Positions 33,600-52,280 of a stretch of 64,000 bases of DNA are shown piece by piece. Within the stretch, counting starts at the first letter, position 1; every line of letters begins with the position of its first letter. The notes below the pieces were generated by a model. It was not told the origin of the DNA and did not search any database. It saw only the letters and a list, made by a program, of their open reading frames with translations. Source of the DNA: Sediminibacterium roseum (GTDB lineage: Bacteria > Bacteroidota > Bacteroidia > Chitinophagales > Chitinophagaceae). The position numbers and the translations under genes are program-made. The stretch is from contig NZ_JAACJS010000015.1 in NCBI RefSeq assembly GCF_009939005.1, positions 1,738,325 through 1,802,324 on the forward strand, read 5' to 3'.

Positions 33600-35090
33600 T
33601 TATCGCCTAAGTGAACGTCTTTGCTTTTGAGATTGTTCATCGAGTTTCAGATATCCTTCTTTGTGTGTTAAAAACGCATTGCTTTGAGTTAAGAATTTTT
33701 CCATTTGATCGAATTTTTGCTGATTTACCTGGCTGCTGAAGGTCCAAGCTTTCTGAAGCATTCTTATGTAAGCATCCCCTTCTCTCAGCTTGGTCAGTTT
33801 TTTTATCGCGCCCATATAATCTTCACGATAAACTGTTGGGATAATGATTTTTGCCAGTTGTTGTGAGCTGAGTTCGGCATTCATCATTACACGCGCTATT
33901 CTTCCATTTCCATCCAGAAAGGGATGCACTTCGCTTACAAGGAACATCATGTACGCTGCTTTGGCAAACGGGTGGCGTAAAATACTGTACCACTCATAGC
34001 CTTTCTTAAGCGTTCCTCGTACGAGTTCTTTATCTACAAATTCTGTATTACCTGCGCGGTTATTCTTGTCTTTGAATTCACCTGGATTTTTTGACGCTCG
34101 CGCGCTCAAAAGTATTGCGTGCCTTTCTTTTAGCAGATTGAGAAAATGATCGGGGGATGTCGGGGTTACCGCCATTTCCTTCTGATTCGAAACAATCTGG
34201 TAAGTTCCCAAAATATCATGCGAATCCTCATCGCGCGCCGGAATCGGCATTTCGGTTGTAATTATCTTTTTTGCTTCATCCAGCGTAAACTCGGTTCCTT
34301 CTATATAATTGGAGAAATAGCCTTCAAAAAATGCAAAGTTATGATATGCCTGCGTTGTTCGATTTTCTTCCGGATAATCTGGGTATTCTCGTTTAATCAG
34401 TTCATGGTAAAGGGATTCAAACAATTCGACTCTATCGGGATCTACCGGTTCGCCCAACACTCTTGATTTTGCGATGGGACTTATAAGATTTTTAGAGATC
34501 CCGGTGCCGAGCATGGCGGATACCAAACGGGTCAATTCTTCCGCTTCTTTTTCCATGCCCAGTTTTGGCGCAATTTCTTTCGCTTTGTCTCTTATTTGAT
34601 TGAGTGCTTCTTCCCCTTTGACCCGGATGAATTTTTCGATTTTTTCTTCCAGCTCCTGGCGTGGCAGGGCTTTGGATTCTTCACCAGTTCCTTTGGTTCT
34701 TTGAAGATTTTCAAGATAGGCTCGTGGTAGGCTGGAGATTCGTAAATTTCCAAAGAATAGCGAATCTTCATGTAATGGACCTGGGCCGCTGATAAAGTGT
34801 AAAGTGAGACCTGGAAGCTCTATACTATTTTTACTTTTACGGGTAAGGTAAAGATGCCCGTTTGAAGTCGGTATATGATCCAATGCACTGCGATGGCTCA
34901 ACTGCGCATCGGGAAATAATTCTGAGACCAGGTGATACCAGTTGCGCCGGATAATTTTTTCCGGTGGATCAGTAAGATTCGAGGTATATATTCTTGGTGC
35001 GATTTTTCTTACCAACCCCTCACGTTCCAGATTTCCGATTTCTTTCGAATTTTCGGCAGTTCCGATAAGTATTTCTTTCAATTTGTTCAT
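33600..35090 (-). CDS. AbiEi-like N-terminal domain fused to Fic AMP-transferase domain
   Basis: Protein of 496 aa with two parts. Residues 1-130 resemble the N-terminus of AbiEi-type antitoxins: a winged-helix-like segment (LEREGLVRKIAPRIYTS), then PPEKIIRRNW and LSHRSALDHIP. Residues 245-460 form a Fic domain with the catalytic motif HPFLDGNGRIAR (389-400). The inhibitory motif (S/T)xxxE(G/N) is present as SNYIEG at 260-265, before the Fic core, as in class II Fic proteins. Fic proteins usually attach AMP to target hydroxyls; the target here is unknown. A pair of 18-base direct repeats upstream may be its operator. Confidence 0.85.
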   Translation of the reverse strand: MNKLKEILIGTAENSKEIGNLEREGLVRKIAPRIYTSNLTDPPEKIIRRNWYHLVSELFPDAQLSHRSALDHIPTSNGHLYLTRKSKNSIELPGLTLHFISGPGPLHEDSLFFGNLRISSLPRAYLENLQRTKGTGEESKALPRQELEEKIEKFIRVKGEEALNQIRDKAKEIAPKLGMEKEAEELTRLVSAMLGTGISKNLISPIAKSRVLGEPVDPDRVELFESLYHELIKREYPDYPEENRTTQAYHNFAFFEGYFSNYIEGTEFTLDEAKKIITTEMPIPARDEDSHDILGTYQIVSNQKEMAVTPTSPDHFLNLLKERHAILLSARASKNPGEFKDKNNRAGNTEFVDKELVRGTLKKGYEWYSILRHPFAKAAYMMFLVSEVHPFLDGNGRIARVMMNAELSSQQLAKIIIPTVYREDYMGAIKKLTKLREGDAYIRMLQKAWTFSSQVNQQKFDQMEKFLTQSNAFLTHKEGYLKLDEQSQKQRRSLRR

Positions 35091-35130
35091 GGTAATATTT
35101 GTCTCCTAAAACCCAACCAAGCCACGCAAA

Positions 35131-35179
35131 TGGAAATAATTTACCCCATAAGTCTGCGTTTTGGAAATAATTTACCCCA
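35131..35179. promoter_or_regulatory. Two 18-bp direct repeats upstream of the AbiEi-Fic gene
   Basis: TGGAAATAATTTACCCCA occurs exactly at 35131-35148 and 35162-35179, 31 bases apart (three helical turns). The Fic start is at 35090, so the repeats lie 41-89 bases upstream, in the promoter zone. AbiEi-type domains repress their own operons via repeats, so autoregulation is likely but inferred. Confidence 0.6.
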
Positions 35180-35197
35180 AATATAAATAAATATCCC

Positions 35198-35794
35198 CTA
35201 ATTTCTATTTTTCGGCTTACTTTTTCCATTCTTTTGGAGGCTTAGCCGAACTGAATCAGTTAGAAGTTGAAGCTGTTTTTCTGCGCTCACAACGTTATTT
35301 CTAAAATTGTCATTATCTATATTAAACAGACTATCGATTCGGTAGGTTAACTTTACGACACCTTCATTACCGAACGCCCTTAGATACCGGTATTTAATAC
35401 TGTTTTCATTATACCAACTTAATCTATCGTATGTACGCATCCAACCACCGGCGAACAATAGCGTAATGAAAGCCAGACCTACGGATAACCAAACACCTTT
35501 GTGAAGTACGTGCTTGTGTTCAATTTTATTGTCTTTAATTGCTGATATCTCCTCATGCAGCCTTGCGATATTTTGGCTCAACTCTTTAACCACATTTCTA
35601 TCCAACAAAAACTTCGCGAGTATCTCTTTTTTTAAGCTGGCTATTTCATTAGTGATAGCTGAGTAGTCTATTTGTGGTCTTTGGTCTAGGGCTGCATGTA
35701 ATAATATTTCCATTCCTTCAAACCTTTCCACTACGGATTGCATAAGTAAATTCTGCGTATCATCATCCCTGATTTTTAATTCATTCTTATCCAT
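35198..35794 (-). CDS. Mobilization-associated membrane protein
   Basis: Unrecognised protein of 198 aa. Charged N-terminal helices (about 60-95, coiled-coil prone: SLKKEILAKFLLDRNVVKEL) precede one membrane helix (about 103-122, GVWLSVGLAFITLLFAGG). A soluble C-terminal part ends in a basic tail (KNGKSKPKNRN). It lies one base after the MobB relaxase in a Mob operon. Similar single-span proteins follow MobB in Bacteroidota mobilizable islands and may aid contact with the transfer apparatus (inference). Confidence 0.6.
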   Translation of the reverse strand: MDKNELKIRDDDTQNLLMQSVVERFEGMEILLHAALDQRPQIDYSAITNEIASLKKEILAKFLLDRNVVKELSQNIARLHEEISAIKDNKIEHKHVLHKGVWLSVGLAFITLLFAGGWMRTYDRLSWYNENSIKYRYLRAFGNEGVVKLTYRIDSLFNIDNDNFRNNVVSAEKQLQLLTDSVRLSLQKNGKSKPKNRN

Positions 35795-35795
35795 A

Positions 35796-36698
35796 TTATA
35801 ATCGGTGTCGTTTGCGTTTCTTTTTCAAAAACTCGGAAGGAAGTTGATTGTATTCCTCTTCAGGTTTCAGCAATTCTCTGGCCATATCCATCGCACGTGC
35901 GACAGCCCATGCTTTGAGATCAATCTTAGTTCCTGAGTGGCTCATATTAAGAATTTGTTTTTTCGCCTTGGATTGTTCCAATTTCTTACTCAGCATTCCG
36001 TAAGAAAACGAACGATCAATTTCTGAACCTTTATACTTGAATTTACCTTTGGTGAAACTAATTCCCTGCACCTCATTTGTTTGGCCTTTGAACTTATATA
36101 CCAGCCCGATTTTCTCTACTTTCAACAGCACAGCCAACTCATCCATCGATCTGCATTTGGGAAGCAATTCGGTAATGGCCTGAAATATTTCATAACGGGT
36201 AGCATCGAAATCGTTCATGCGTTCCATCTGTGTCCGTTCCAGATCTTTTTTAATCGCGGGAACTAGTCCGTATTCCTGTGTCAATTGTTGGGCTATTTTC
36301 TTTCCCCGAAGTCCCAAAAAATTATCCTTGATTGTACGCCCTTCATTGTCTACCCGGTTGAACAAAATATGTGCATGTGGGTTGTTCCGATCATTGTGCC
36401 TTACCACAACAAACTGTGTGTTCGAAACCTGTATCCTTTTCAAATATTCTAATGCGATTTCAGACATCTTTTCGTTTTGGATGTCCTCACCGGCACACCA
36501 GGATAATATGATATGTTGGACCGGTGATTTTAGACCCGGATTTAATTGCCGCTGAGATTCCAAATCTTCAGCCATTAGGACATGATCATAATCCCTGACT
36601 CCTTCCGAAAATATCACTTCTGCCCGTTCGCGGTTACTGCACAAATACCTGCAAGCGCCAGCGAATGATTTACCCGGTTTAATTACCTTACTGATCAT
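35796..36698 (-). CDS. mobB: MobB-type relaxase (mobilization nuclease)
   Basis: Nicks oriT and pilots the strand during conjugative mobilization. The protein is 300 aa, a short form. The HUH-type metal motif is HNDRNNPHAHILFNRV (H101, D103, H108, H110). A conserved Tyr in CRYLC near residue 18 is the nicking candidate. A basic C-terminus follows. The start overlaps the MobC gene by 11 bases. Confidence 0.9.
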   Translation of the reverse strand: MISKVIKPGKSFAGACRYLCSNRERAEVIFSEGVRDYDHVLMAEDLESQRQLNPGLKSPVQHIILSWCAGEDIQNEKMSEIALEYLKRIQVSNTQFVVVRHNDRNNPHAHILFNRVDNEGRTIKDNFLGLRGKKIAQQLTQEYGLVPAIKKDLERTQMERMNDFDATRYEIFQAITELLPKCRSMDELAVLLKVEKIGLVYKFKGQTNEVQGISFTKGKFKYKGSEIDRSFSYGMLSKKLEQSKAKKQILNMSHSGTKIDLKAWAVARAMDMARELLKPEEEYNQLPSEFLKKKRKRHRL

Positions 36699-37032
36699 CG
36701 CGCAATCTGTTTAAAATATGGTGCAATTCACCCTTCACTTTTTCAAAAAATAGCAACGCAGTAAGTAGGCCCTTTTGATGGGCGAGTTTGGTTAGTTGAT
36801 TGATGTTATTAGCCATTCCTCCCAATTGTTTTTCCAGTTGCTTGTCAACTGGATGTGGCCTTGCTTTTACATATCCTTCAACGGCCATTGTCCGGACATA
36901 TACAGTGATCTTCATTCCGGCTTTTGTTGCCTTTTGTTTCACAATAAAATACTCGGCTTTCGTAAATCTCACACCGGTAGCTGCCTCTCTTTTTATTACC
37001 TTCTTAGGTCTACCGCCTTTACCGTTACCCAT
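36688..37032 (-). CDS. mobC: MobC-like mobilization accessory protein
   Basis: Small basic protein of 114 aa, first in the Mob operon. A GRPKK motif is followed by a ribbon-helix-helix-like N-terminal half (GVRFTKAEYFIVKQKATKAG) that binds oriT, and a C-terminal MobC pattern (LGGMANNINQLTKLAHQKG). It overlaps mobB by 11 bases. The nested inverted repeat 51 bases upstream is a candidate oriT. Confidence 0.88.
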   Translation of the reverse strand: MGNGKGGRPKKVIKREAATGVRFTKAEYFIVKQKATKAGMKITVYVRTMAVEGYVKARPHPVDKQLEKQLGGMANNINQLTKLAHQKGLLTALLFFEKVKGELHHILNRLRDDQ

Positions 37033-37137: not shown

Positions 37138-38034
37138 CTATCTGCCTATTCTTCTTGACTGGCTTTGATGCTGAGACTGAATCTTGCTCACATACCACTC
37201 ATTGAGATCCTTATAATCTTTGTAACTGCGACTCTCATCAATTACTTTTCCTTGACTTCTTTTCTCTATCGCCTGTACACATTTTCTACCGGCAGCGTCG
37301 TTATCCAGATACAAATGAATTCGTTCGTATTTCTCCTGGAGCAATAAACTGCGAGTGAAAAAAGAAAGGGAGTTCAGTACAAGAATGTTCGTTGGTTTTA
37401 CGAGTTGCGGGGTCTGCATGGAGCGCCATGTTAGAAAGTCAAAGAAGCCTTCAAACACCGAAATATTATCAGCCACATTATTAAACCAGGTTACATATTT
37501 TGGTGCGCTGCTTCCTTTGAAGTTTTCGGAGCGCAATTCGTAACCACCGCAATTGTTTTTAAAACCAATTGCGGCGAACCGTTTCCCGGCGTTTTCATAT
37601 AGCACCTGCTTACAGAATTTTGCAGCAACTAATTTGTCAATCTGACGTCGGTTTAAATAACGCAAAAGAAACATATCGGTGATCGATTGATCGACACGGA
37701 TAATCTGGATGGAATTTGAGGCATCGACCTGGGATGTAACATGCGCTTGGAAAATGGGGTCGGGTTGGTGGATGCTTCCTGATTCTATTTTACTTAATGC
37801 ATCTGTAAGGCCACATTTAAAATACAGCATCGCAAAGTCTACCAGATTTCCACCTTGACCAGTTCCATGATCGTACCATATATTTTTATTGCGGTTTACT
37901 TTGAATGAGGCAGTTTTCTCCGCATGGTTGGGTGACAGGAACCAATAGTTGTTCTGGCGTATTTTCTCCGGTTTGAATCCAAGGGTCGCCATATAATCAA
38001 CCATGTCAATTTGATTGGCTTGTTGACAATTCAT
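37138..38034 (-). CDS. Primase-like protein with CHC2-like and Toprim domains
   Basis: Protein of 298 aa typical of mobilizable islands, likely for priming after transfer. The N-terminal region (about 10-75) resembles the CHC2 zinc finger fold (SPNHAEKTASF, then WYDHGTGQGGNLVDF), but the expected zinc cysteines are absent, with Ser before Pro. The Toprim-like C-terminal half holds YERIHLYLDNDAAGRKC, with the acidic DND pair. It lies 12 bases before the excisionase-like HTH gene. Role inferred from family and place. Confidence 0.75.
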   Translation of the reverse strand: MNCQQANQIDMVDYMATLGFKPEKIRQNNYWFLSPNHAEKTASFKVNRNKNIWYDHGTGQGGNLVDFAMLYFKCGLTDALSKIESGSIHQPDPIFQAHVTSQVDASNSIQIIRVDQSITDMFLLRYLNRRQIDKLVAAKFCKQVLYENAGKRFAAIGFKNNCGGYELRSENFKGSSAPKYVTWFNNVADNISVFEGFFDFLTWRSMQTPQLVKPTNILVLNSLSFFTRSLLLQEKYERIHLYLDNDAAGRKCVQAIEKRSQGKVIDESRSYKDYKDLNEWYVSKIQSQHQSQSRRIGR

Positions 38035-38045
38035 ACGACAGCTTT

Positions 38046-38363
38046 TTACGGGTTAACAGGCGGTTGCATTTGGCGGATGACAAGTTCAATGTCTGCGCGG
38101 GAAAAATACCGGCGGGAACGGATCTTGAAACTGCGTAGTTTATCCTGCCTGATCCACGCATACAGCGTTGGCTTGGATACCCGGAAAATTTCGCAGACTT
38201 CCGTTGCTTTGAGAAGGGTTTTTTCCGGCATGTCGATACAAGACTGTGGAGTTCCATTCTGCATTGTGGCGAGTTTGGCATCTACAACTTCCGACACGAC
38301 TACTTTGATCTGTTTCCAAAACTCCGAAGGAGCTACCGGAAATAACATAGGGGTTTCCTGCAT
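38046..38363 (-). CDS. Helix-turn-helix excisionase-like protein
   Basis: Small DNA-binding protein of 105 aa with an HTH_17/MerR-like domain near residues 50-100 (LLKATEVCEIFRVSKPTLYA, then WIRQDK and YFSRADIELVIRQM). Found with integrases and mobilization genes of Bacteroidota, where it aids excision or controls transfer genes. It is first in this leftward operon (HTH, primase, mobC, mobB). Confidence 0.82.
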   Translation of the reverse strand: MQETPMLFPVAPSEFWKQIKVVVSEVVDAKLATMQNGTPQSCIDMPEKTLLKATEVCEIFRVSKPTLYAWIRQDKLRSFKIRSRRYFSRADIELVIRQMQPPVNP

Positions 38364-50912: not shown

Positions 50913-52022
50913 TTACCTTTCGTTATTATCCCTCAACACATAGCTCGTACTTCTACCACCTGCATCTTCTTTTACAAGGATTCCTTTGTCCATTAAATCC
51001 TGAATATCCCGCAAGGCTGTATCAGTAGAGCATTTTGCAATGCTTGCCCATTTCGATGAATTCAGTTTTCCATCAAAGCCATCGAGTAATTTGTTCAACA
51101 TGAGCCTTTGTCGATTATTGATCTCAGCATCATTCACATGATCCCAAAACTTCGTTTTGCGATTTACGTCTTTCAATGTGCTTTCTACTTTATCAAGTGA
51201 ACGTCCGAGACAATTAAGAAACCACTCAAGCCATTCGGTAATATCTAACGCGCCCTTCTGCGTTTTCTCCAGCATATTATAATAATCGTTTCGCTCGATG
51301 CGGATCTGCGCTGACATACTATAAAATCTTTGCGTTGTTTTCTCGGCGCGGGCAAGTTGCATATCGGCAATTGCGCGCGCAATGCGGCCGTTGCCATCTT
51401 CAAAAGGGTGAATGGTTACGAACCATAAATGAGCAATCGCCGATTTCAAAACAGGGTCAAGGTTCTGTTCACCATTGAACCAATCCAGAAACGCGGCCAT
51501 TTCTTTTGGAAGCGCCCTGGCATCGGGCGCCTCAAAATGGACTTTTTCTTTGCCTATGGCGCCGGATACAACACGCATCGGGCCGTTTTGACCGGTTCTC
51601 CACGCGCCAACGGTAATTTTGAACAGACCGCTTCGCCCGGTTGGGAACAAGGCCGCTTGCCAGCCATATAAACGATCTTCTGTAAGAGGCTGATCGAAAT
51701 GTTGGGTGGCATCCAGCATCAACTCAACCACGCCATCCACATTACGATCCGAGGGTACAAGTCCGCTTACTTCCATTCCCAAGTGCCTTGCTATGGATGA
51801 GCGCACCTGGTCAACATCAAGGATCTCGCCTTCAATTTCACTCGATTTAACCACCTCCTGGGTCAGGTTTTCAAGTGCCGCTTCTGCCCTAACCGAAAAA
51901 CCCAAAGCCTCCATCCTGCCCAGCATTTTGCCCTGCCGGTGGCGTACATCTGCCAGTAGATTTGCCAGGGCTTCGCTGTTCCAGGAGAATTTGGGCCAGT
52001 CCTTGTGTTCATGGATATACAT
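50913..52022 (-). CDS. Fic family protein, DUF4172 type
   Basis: AMP-transferase-fold protein of 369 aa, from the ATG at 52022. Longer readings to 52163 include residues from the operator repeats and are rejected. The N-terminal DUF4172-like region holds the inhibitory motif SSEIEG (60-65), then the Fic motif HPFEDGNGRIAR (205-216). A C-terminal winged helix has LNSSKWASIAKCSTDTALRD and DLMDKGILVKEDAGGRS, likely to bind the upstream repeats. Target unknown. This is a class II Fic with intramolecular inhibition. Confidence 0.9.
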   Translation of the reverse strand: MYIHEHKDWPKFSWNSEALANLLADVRHRQGKMLGRMEALGFSVRAEAALENLTQEVVKSSEIEGEILDVDQVRSSIARHLGMEVSGLVPSDRNVDGVVELMLDATQHFDQPLTEDRLYGWQAALFPTGRSGLFKITVGAWRTGQNGPMRVVSGAIGKEKVHFEAPDARALPKEMAAFLDWFNGEQNLDPVLKSAIAHLWFVTIHPFEDGNGRIARAIADMQLARAEKTTQRFYSMSAQIRIERNDYYNMLEKTQKGALDITEWLEWFLNCLGRSLDKVESTLKDVNRKTKFWDHVNDAEINNRQRLMLNKLLDGFDGKLNSSKWASIAKCSTDTALRDIQDLMDKGILVKEDAGGRSTSYVLRDNNER

Positions 52023-52023
52023 T

Positions 52024-52119
52024 ATTCGCCGCTTTTCTGCGGCGAATATACCATTTATTCGCCGCATAATCAAAATTATTCGCCGCGCCGATGCGGCGAA
52101 TACTGCGTTTATTCGCCGC
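52024..52119. promoter_or_regulatory. Six-copy operator-like array upstream of Fic gene
   Basis: ATTCGCCGC at 52024-52032, 52057-52065, 52078-52086 and 52111-52119, and its complement GCGGCGAAT at 52039-52047 and 52093-52101. Six identical 9-mers in 96 bases immediately before the start. The array forms nested inverted pairs and starts one base before the ATG on the minus strand. Confidence 0.8.
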
Positions 52120-52280
52120 ATTTTCTTGAAAAACGGATGTAAAGTGATTTTACCAACTCCCAAGTCGGCATTTCATACCAAATCCATTTCGTTGCCTCTG
52201 CGTGATTTTGAAGAATTCCTGGCCCTGATCAACGCGACCGGATTTTTTGTCTCCGGAAACCATCCGGCATTTATAAATTC

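Follow-up and report, generated by a model that had tools for sequence, protein, structure and literature searches.

An AbiEi-like domain fused to a class II Fic enzyme in Sediminibacterium roseum, with a conserved 31-bp direct-repeat geometry upstream of the gene

Introduction

Proteins of the AbiEi type have been described as separate antitoxins encoded beside the nucleotidyltransferase AbiEii, which bind inverted repeats of 23 bp and repress their own operon via these repeats (PMC3985639; PMC7319586). Among Fic proteins, CccR of Yersinia pseudotuberculosis is a Fic and DNA-binding protein in one, which represses itself and AMPylates FtsZ (PMC9755527), in CbFic2 DNA binding raises Fic activity (PMC10628234), and Sofic is a class II Fic defence protein (PMC12249575), each as given in the accessible portions of these reports. 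A survey of 2009 comprised several HTH-Fic fusions, AbiEi not being among them in the accessible text (PMC2686095), and the available part of a toxin-antitoxin survey of the same year does not name an AbiEi-Fic fusion (PMC2701414). No description of such a fusion was found in the accessible sections of PMC9755527, PMC3985639, PMC6504116, PMC8562856 and PMC9894559, a scope outside of which most of the subscription literature lies.

In the present study a stretch of 64,000 nucleotides of Sediminibacterium roseum, here called the window, was analysed with regard to one gene, its upstream region and its relatives. The gene belongs to a family in which a Fic enzyme carries a DNA-binding domain of the antitoxin type.

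Materials and Methods

Relatives were taken from 34 loci on genome contigs, 30 loci from the 39 of 395 phylum-sample genomes, ten stretches read out of 69 plasmid records with a match, and 21 viral-contig loci. For the count of 31-bp repeats 87 members were clustered to 33; nine loci were left out of this set as incomplete, as a duplicate of the window, for want of a usable start or because of a short upstream region (L031, L033, L034, L035, L073, L075, L143, L149, L162), L034 matching in the Fic part only. The repeat survey comprised 56 loci, from which L016, L017, L027, L028, L031, L033, L035 and L036 were omitted as duplicates or incomplete. A later fetch yielded 19 loci, five of which were dropped (L178, L179, L180 and L183 with no usable 5' end, L182 with no start), and three proteins identical to earlier ones were removed (L166, L168, L171). 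Start codons were set by rule as the ATG nearest to the aligned start. Significance of repeats was assessed against dinucleotide shuffles, 400 for spacing 31 and 60 for the 24 other spacings. The neighbour set was drawn from 24 loci and comprised ORFs that were at least 115 aa long and no more than three places away from the gene, and the neighbourhood layout covered 38 of 40 loci, L013 and L019 not being resolved. The N-terminal structure model comprised residues 1-200.

Results

The features of the locus are compiled in Table 1. The 496-aa protein contains a Pfam Fic domain (E=1.3e-13), and Foldseek recovered the Fic fold from its full-length model (FICD, E=2.3e-7; SoFic, E=6.9e-5). PADLOC matched SoFic (5.9e-19) and the candidate family PDC-S04 (3.5e-18), both confined to the Fic part. 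An inhibitory helix of class II, (S/T)xxxE(G/N), lies N-terminal to the FIC motif; across the family SN[YF]IEG is present in 87 of 87 members, and the canonical FIC motif is kept in 86 of 87. No helix-turn-helix of the CccR/SoFic type follows the Fic domain in the model, which consists of helices up to residue 469 and ends in a tail (476-496) with a pLDDT below 50. As a separate observation, locus L018 shows an altered catalytic motif (GNAR for GNGR) and has retained the inhibitory motif as well as the 31-bp repeats.

Table 1. Coordinates of the AbiEi-Fic gene, its repeats and neighbouring genes in the window.
Feature	Position	Strand	Basis and remarks
AbiEi-Fic gene	33600..35090	minus	496 aa, ATG start; ORF list, Pfam Fic, AF2 model with mean pLDDT 83.6
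AbiEi-like region (winged helix + AbiEi C-terminal-type domain)	34518..35090	minus	residues 1-191; N-terminal model pLDDT 91.4
Winged helix-turn-helix core, presumed DNA-binding	34983..35072	minus	about residues 7-36; model secondary structure; function inferred from AbiEi
Inhibitory motif SNYIEG (class II Fic)	34296..34313	minus	residues 260-265
Catalytic FIC motif HPFLDGNGRIAR	33891..33926	minus	residues 389-400
Operator-like repeat, distal copy TGGGGTAAATTATTTCCA	35162..35179	minus	-89 to -72 from ATG
Operator-like repeat, proximal copy	35131..35148	minus	-58 to -41 from ATG
TATATTTG, match to Bacteroidota -7 element	35178..35185	minus	touches the distal repeat
198-aa ORF, no assigned function	35198..35794	minus	ORF list; upstream of the AbiEi-Fic gene, between it and the relaxase
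Relaxase (MobA type) and NikA/MobC-like genes, mobilisation region	35796..37032	minus	profile matches
Primase-like and excisionase-like HTH genes, same mobilisation region	37138..38363	minus	profile matches

A Pfam search of the N-terminus gave no match, and the PADLOC AbiEi match of the window protein was weak (E=2.5e-4, residues 5-80). Across the family, the AbiEi model PDLC02269 was matched (E<=0.01) by 31 of 44 N-termini; these 44 gave matches to 13 PADLOC families in total, every one an AbiEi model. In Foldseek the best PDB match of the N-terminal model was AbiEi of Streptococcus agalactiae (6y8q; E=1.6e-4), at a TM of only 0.41 and an rmsd of 8.3; in VIA, whose list is a re-examination of the Foldseek matches and no independent search, the same structure reached Z 10.1 (rmsd 4.5, 168 residues aligned, model residues 1-191), followed by Rv2827c (1zel) with Z 6.6 over 176 residues, a match weak on its own. 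Since the 6y8q alignment extends across the N-terminal model, the fusion has a whole AbiEi-like part, winged helix and AbiEi C-terminal domain, and more than a winged helix. The original prediction, made from the letters of the window, had joined an AbiEi-like N-terminus to a Fic domain with SNYIEG and a catalytic motif, and both this architecture and the proposed alignment with AbiEi structures were confirmed. Residues 46-190 of the N-terminal model also align with toxins of the nucleotidyltransferase type (MenT1, 8an4, Z 8.0, the level of common matches); judged from the models, the AbiEi antitoxin domain and these toxins may possibly be of one fold.

Upstream of the gene two identical 18-mers with a start-to-start distance of 31 bp were found as had been claimed. 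The 18-mer is without a further match in the window at up to three mismatches (0.08 expected), and no other exact copy occurs in the 4.5-Mb genome; with three mismatches the genome holds three other matches versus 5 for the reversed control pattern. A single exact locus in the genome fits autoregulation rather than a regulon, which was rejected since the genome is without further exact sites. The sequence TATATTTG matches TAnnTTTG, the -7 consensus of Bacteroidota; such a match was found within 200 bases in only 7 of 23 representatives classed as Bacteroidota-like, and a promoter is not established.

With regard to the family, a 31-bp direct repeat lies upstream of the gene in 28 of the 33 members (p<=0.05). 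These members share less than 70% identity and comprise the window, without which the count is 27 of 32; at p<=0.01 it is 18 of 33, and Fisher p for the set is 1e-32. Among the 24 other spacings tried, 20 gave zero to three members out of 33, the exceptions being 41 (8 members), 72 (6), 32 (6) and 73 (4), and additional repeat copies at 41 and 72 bp exist in the family. The letters of the repeats vary by lineage while the spacing stays constant, as exemplified by ATTTTAGTGGAAAAAATTTTCCA, TTTAGGGTGAAATTTTTGC, TTAAGTCTGAAAAGTTTT and units with GTTGACATTAA, and four of the five Pseudomonadota plasmid representatives (L068-L072) pass the test. The members that fail are L005, L020, L066, L072 and L147, four of which have repeats at other spacings (L005 at 32 bp, L147 at 29 bp and, among others, L066 at 32 bp and L072 at 41 bp). 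In the closest relative, L001 (86% identical), an exact repeat of at least 10 is absent and the best imperfect ones lie at 20, 51 and 41 bp.

The spacing of 31 had first been noticed on many of the loci later counted in the 33-member test, and the later-fetched members are therefore the weightiest test: 13 of 14 pass at p<=0.05, or 10 of 11 once the three identical proteins are removed, with L170 as the sole failure and the nearest earlier protein being 58-85% identical. The repeats, on whose conservation with the gene the original prediction depended, accompany it across phyla in differing letters.

Spacings across 43 upstream regions follow a period of 10.5 bp (permutation p 0.0005; 0.001 excluding spacings 29-33), which aligns the repeat sites along one face of the helix. 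A significant palindrome was detected in only 2 of 28 members, one copy per member being considered; the notion that each copy is a palindrome was therefore rejected and the arrangement is read as head-to-tail. Regulation through repeats as in AbiEi, which the original prediction had brought up as a known precedent, is in keeping with their presence upstream and their conservation, but the form differs, as they are direct and helically phased and not the inverted 23-bp promoter repeats of the AbiEi type, and kinship with the S. agalactiae AbiEi repeats was not significant (p 0.10 and 0.14). The distal copy is centred in the interval from -72 to -59 relative to the start codon in 16 of 28 members and at -80 in the window; because the window protein begins some five codons downstream of the main alignment group, its repeats, when measured from the conserved coding sequence, probably lie much as those of its relatives do.

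As controls, the 31-bp test was applied to other ORFs of the same loci, of which 3 of 166 passed, these being rule-defined ORFs and not all real genes, and to AT-matched ORFs (1 of 68). Fic genes without the AbiEi-like N-terminus passed in 3 of 26 cases at 0.05 and in one at 0.01. They were defined by the lack of a match to an HMM built on alignment A2; this HMM recovered 87 of 87 members of the family and none of 223 control ORFs, and standalone AbiEi likewise did not match it. For standalone AbiEi-type genes the result was 1 of 30, a set of ORFs selected near a PADLOC AbiEi match for their length and position, of which at least one (L130) resembles the partner toxin more. The 31-bp repeat as a general trait of Fic or AbiEi genes was accordingly not borne out, and a chance repeat was rejected on the scans of window and genome, the conservation in the family and the rates in control ORFs. 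The three passing Fic genes without the AbiEi-like N-terminus fall within L083-L111 and may represent other self-regulated Fic types. In partial Mantel tests the repeat sequence was compared with the winged helix given Fic (r=0.115, p=0.098), with Fic given the winged helix (r=0.213, p=0.007) and with residues 43-135 given Fic (r=0.188, p=0.011); domain-specific covariation was not found, the repeats tracking the winged helix no better than the Fic domain.

The 198-aa ORF upstream of the gene gave no match in Pfam and NCBIfam. In L001 a 202-aa ORF, the start of which is similar to that of the window ORF, and a relaxase directly precede the AbiEi-Fic gene, and two more ORFs farther upstream, 114 and 297 aa long, correspond in size to those in the window. 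The gene had been placed on an island, and in the window and L001 it does follow mobilisation genes. Among 105 neighbour proteins of the 24 scanned loci no family occurred in more than four, relaxases and integrases were matched by two each and many matches were to metabolic families, all among the matches listed (25 of 132 families); PADLOC gave scattered defence-type matches, with no family matching more than one neighbour among those listed (25 of 41 families). A conserved neighbour of at least 80 aa was not found in the 38 loci with a mapped neighbourhood, and none of 497 small ORFs (25-79 aa) at 56 loci was common to loci with Fic proteins less than 70% identical, so that nothing resembling the small Sofic antitoxin was seen. 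A conserved partner gene or defence island was not found in these neighbourhood scans, and neither the AbiEi-Fic gene nor the five upstream ORFs of the window matched the AbiEii nucleotidyltransferase of the two-gene AbiE operon. On the other side of the gene an opposite-strand ORF looks, by eye, like an outer-membrane receptor.

Homologs covering at least 80% of the query were present in 19 plasmid records, and 21 loci were found on viral contigs; 50,697 phage records contained only one partial match, to the Fic part. With a cut-off of E<=1e-60, and including the source genome, the gene occurred in 39 of 395 genomes of the phylum sample, 15 of 395 of the class sample and 6 of 147 of the family sample. 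This patchy distribution suits a mobile accessory gene and is no demonstration of defence or addiction. A search for the empty site in 21 genomes of the genus matched the flank only in the own genome and in one 41-base piece. Two further genes were noticed: a second Fic gene in the window (50913-52163, minus, 416 aa, Pfam Fic 65.9 bits) showed no 31-bp signal upstream of either of two candidate starts, its likeliest start lying further in, and on the plasmids of L066 and L074 a gene annotated as DUF6088, which may encode a standalone AbiEi-like protein, is found near the AbiEi-Fic gene.

Discussion

In this family the AbiEi-like and Fic domains are fused, catalytic and inhibitory motifs are intact, and the conserved, helically phased geometry is specific to the fusion. 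We consider it likely that the one gene encodes a self-repressing, self-inhibited AMP-transferase. As the 31-bp spacing is kept while the letters change, the protein very probably regulates its own gene through a fixed docking geometry, as far as can be judged from the comparison of sequences. Given that AbiEi represses itself via repeats in the accessible parts of the reports (PMC3985639; PMC7319586), the N-terminus should by analogy bind the repeats and repress its own gene. The AbiEi-like N-terminus would sit on the direct repeats with one protomer per site, head to tail, two or sometimes three or more repeats lying before the start codon on the same DNA face and three helical turns apart; their occupancy would keep own expression low, the SNYIEG helix would keep the Fic domain of its own protein inactive, and upon release by some signal this domain would transfer AMP to a cellular target. 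We infer binding of the repeats by the AbiEi part, repression by this binding, AMPylation by the enzyme and, as a result, a slowing of growth. That one polypeptide could unite regulator and toxin, as originally predicted, agrees with the AbiEi-like fold, the class II Fic domain and the conservation of the repeats with the gene. That the scanned loci yielded neither a conserved neighbour nor a common small ORF was counted in favour of the reading as a self-repressing enzyme of one gene. In judging self-repression as likely, the covariation results for winged helix and Fic, the case of L001, the failures in 5 of 33 and 1 of 11 members, the TM of the 6y8q match, the promoter element and the lacking similarity to the S. 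agalactiae repeats were counted against it.

Several other readings were weighed. A single-gene phage-defence effector, which infection would free from self-inhibition and which would then, in a Sofic-like manner, stop the infection abortively by AMPylating a host target, is possible, if doubtful, and compatible with self-repression. The SoFic and PDC-S04 matches, the homologs on plasmids and viral contigs, the patchy distribution and the precedent of Sofic as a class II Fic protein in the accessible part of its description (PMC12249575) accord with it, but the PADLOC matches of the protein lie on its Fic part, phage records yielded a single partial match to that part, and the neighbours, among the matches listed, show few relaxases and integrases, many matches to metabolic families and no recurrent PADLOC family. 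It seems rather unlikely that the protein is a non-toxic regulatory enzyme, an AMP-transferase tuning a housekeeping target, the AbiEi part of which only sets its level: a housekeeping gene would hardly be distributed so patchily or be carried by plasmids and viral contigs, even though the self-inhibition motif of every member and the failure to find a partner gene speak for such an enzyme.

The repeats, in turn, might act for a different factor, either a regulator of the host or an element at the RNA level, with the AbiEi part doing another job. We regard this as improbable, since a fixed spacing with changing letters in Bacteroidota and in four of five Pseudomonadota plasmid representatives is hard to explain by a shared host factor and Fic genes without the AbiEi-like N-terminus are mostly without the 31-bp signal; on its side stand the lack of domain-specific covariation and the 16 of 28 distal copies centred at -72 to -59, which are perhaps partly transcribed. 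More speculative, and quite improbable, is an operator that is itself the antitoxin, where head-to-tail assembly on the phased repeats would hold the Fic domains off. If this were so, loss or dilution of the locus would free active enzyme, and the gene with its own promoter DNA would form a complete addiction module, one without an antitoxin gene.

Returning to the self-repressing AMP-transferase, the 31-bp head-to-tail repeats constitute a regulatory fingerprint that outlasts the turnover of letters and that offers an annotation route for plasmid proteins labelled only 'Fic family protein'. The geometry also provides a ready test of DNA docking as control of a Fic enzyme, and the family is a predicted collection of naturally diverged repressor-operator pairs.

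Compared with known systems, the family resembles the type IV AbiE antitoxin AbiEi (6y8q) in winged helix, C-terminal domain and the several repeats before the gene, but differs in its fusion to Fic, in the absence of AbiEii from the scanned window ORFs and in repeats that are direct. With CccR, according to the accessible part of its report (PMC9755527), it has in common that one polypeptide joins a class II Fic to a DNA-binding domain and that two sites lie in the promoter region; CccR represses its own gene, as the window protein would. The DNA-binding domain of CccR, however, is C-terminal, whereas the AbiEi-type domain is N-terminal here, and a CccR dimer binds inverted 10-mers separated by a 26-bp spacer, in contrast to direct repeats 31 bp apart. 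Sofic (EcSofic) and CbFic2 are likewise class II Fic proteins that bear an additional regulatory domain, theirs being C-terminal, and the accessible portions of their descriptions contain no self-operator with 31-bp direct repeats (PMC12249575; PMC10628234); a small antitoxin gene (AS1) lies downstream of Sofic (PMC12249575, accessible part), whereas no small ORF common to the AbiEi-Fic loci was found. To these systems the family adds the AbiEi part, its N-terminal placement and a fixed geometry of direct repeats 31 bp apart.
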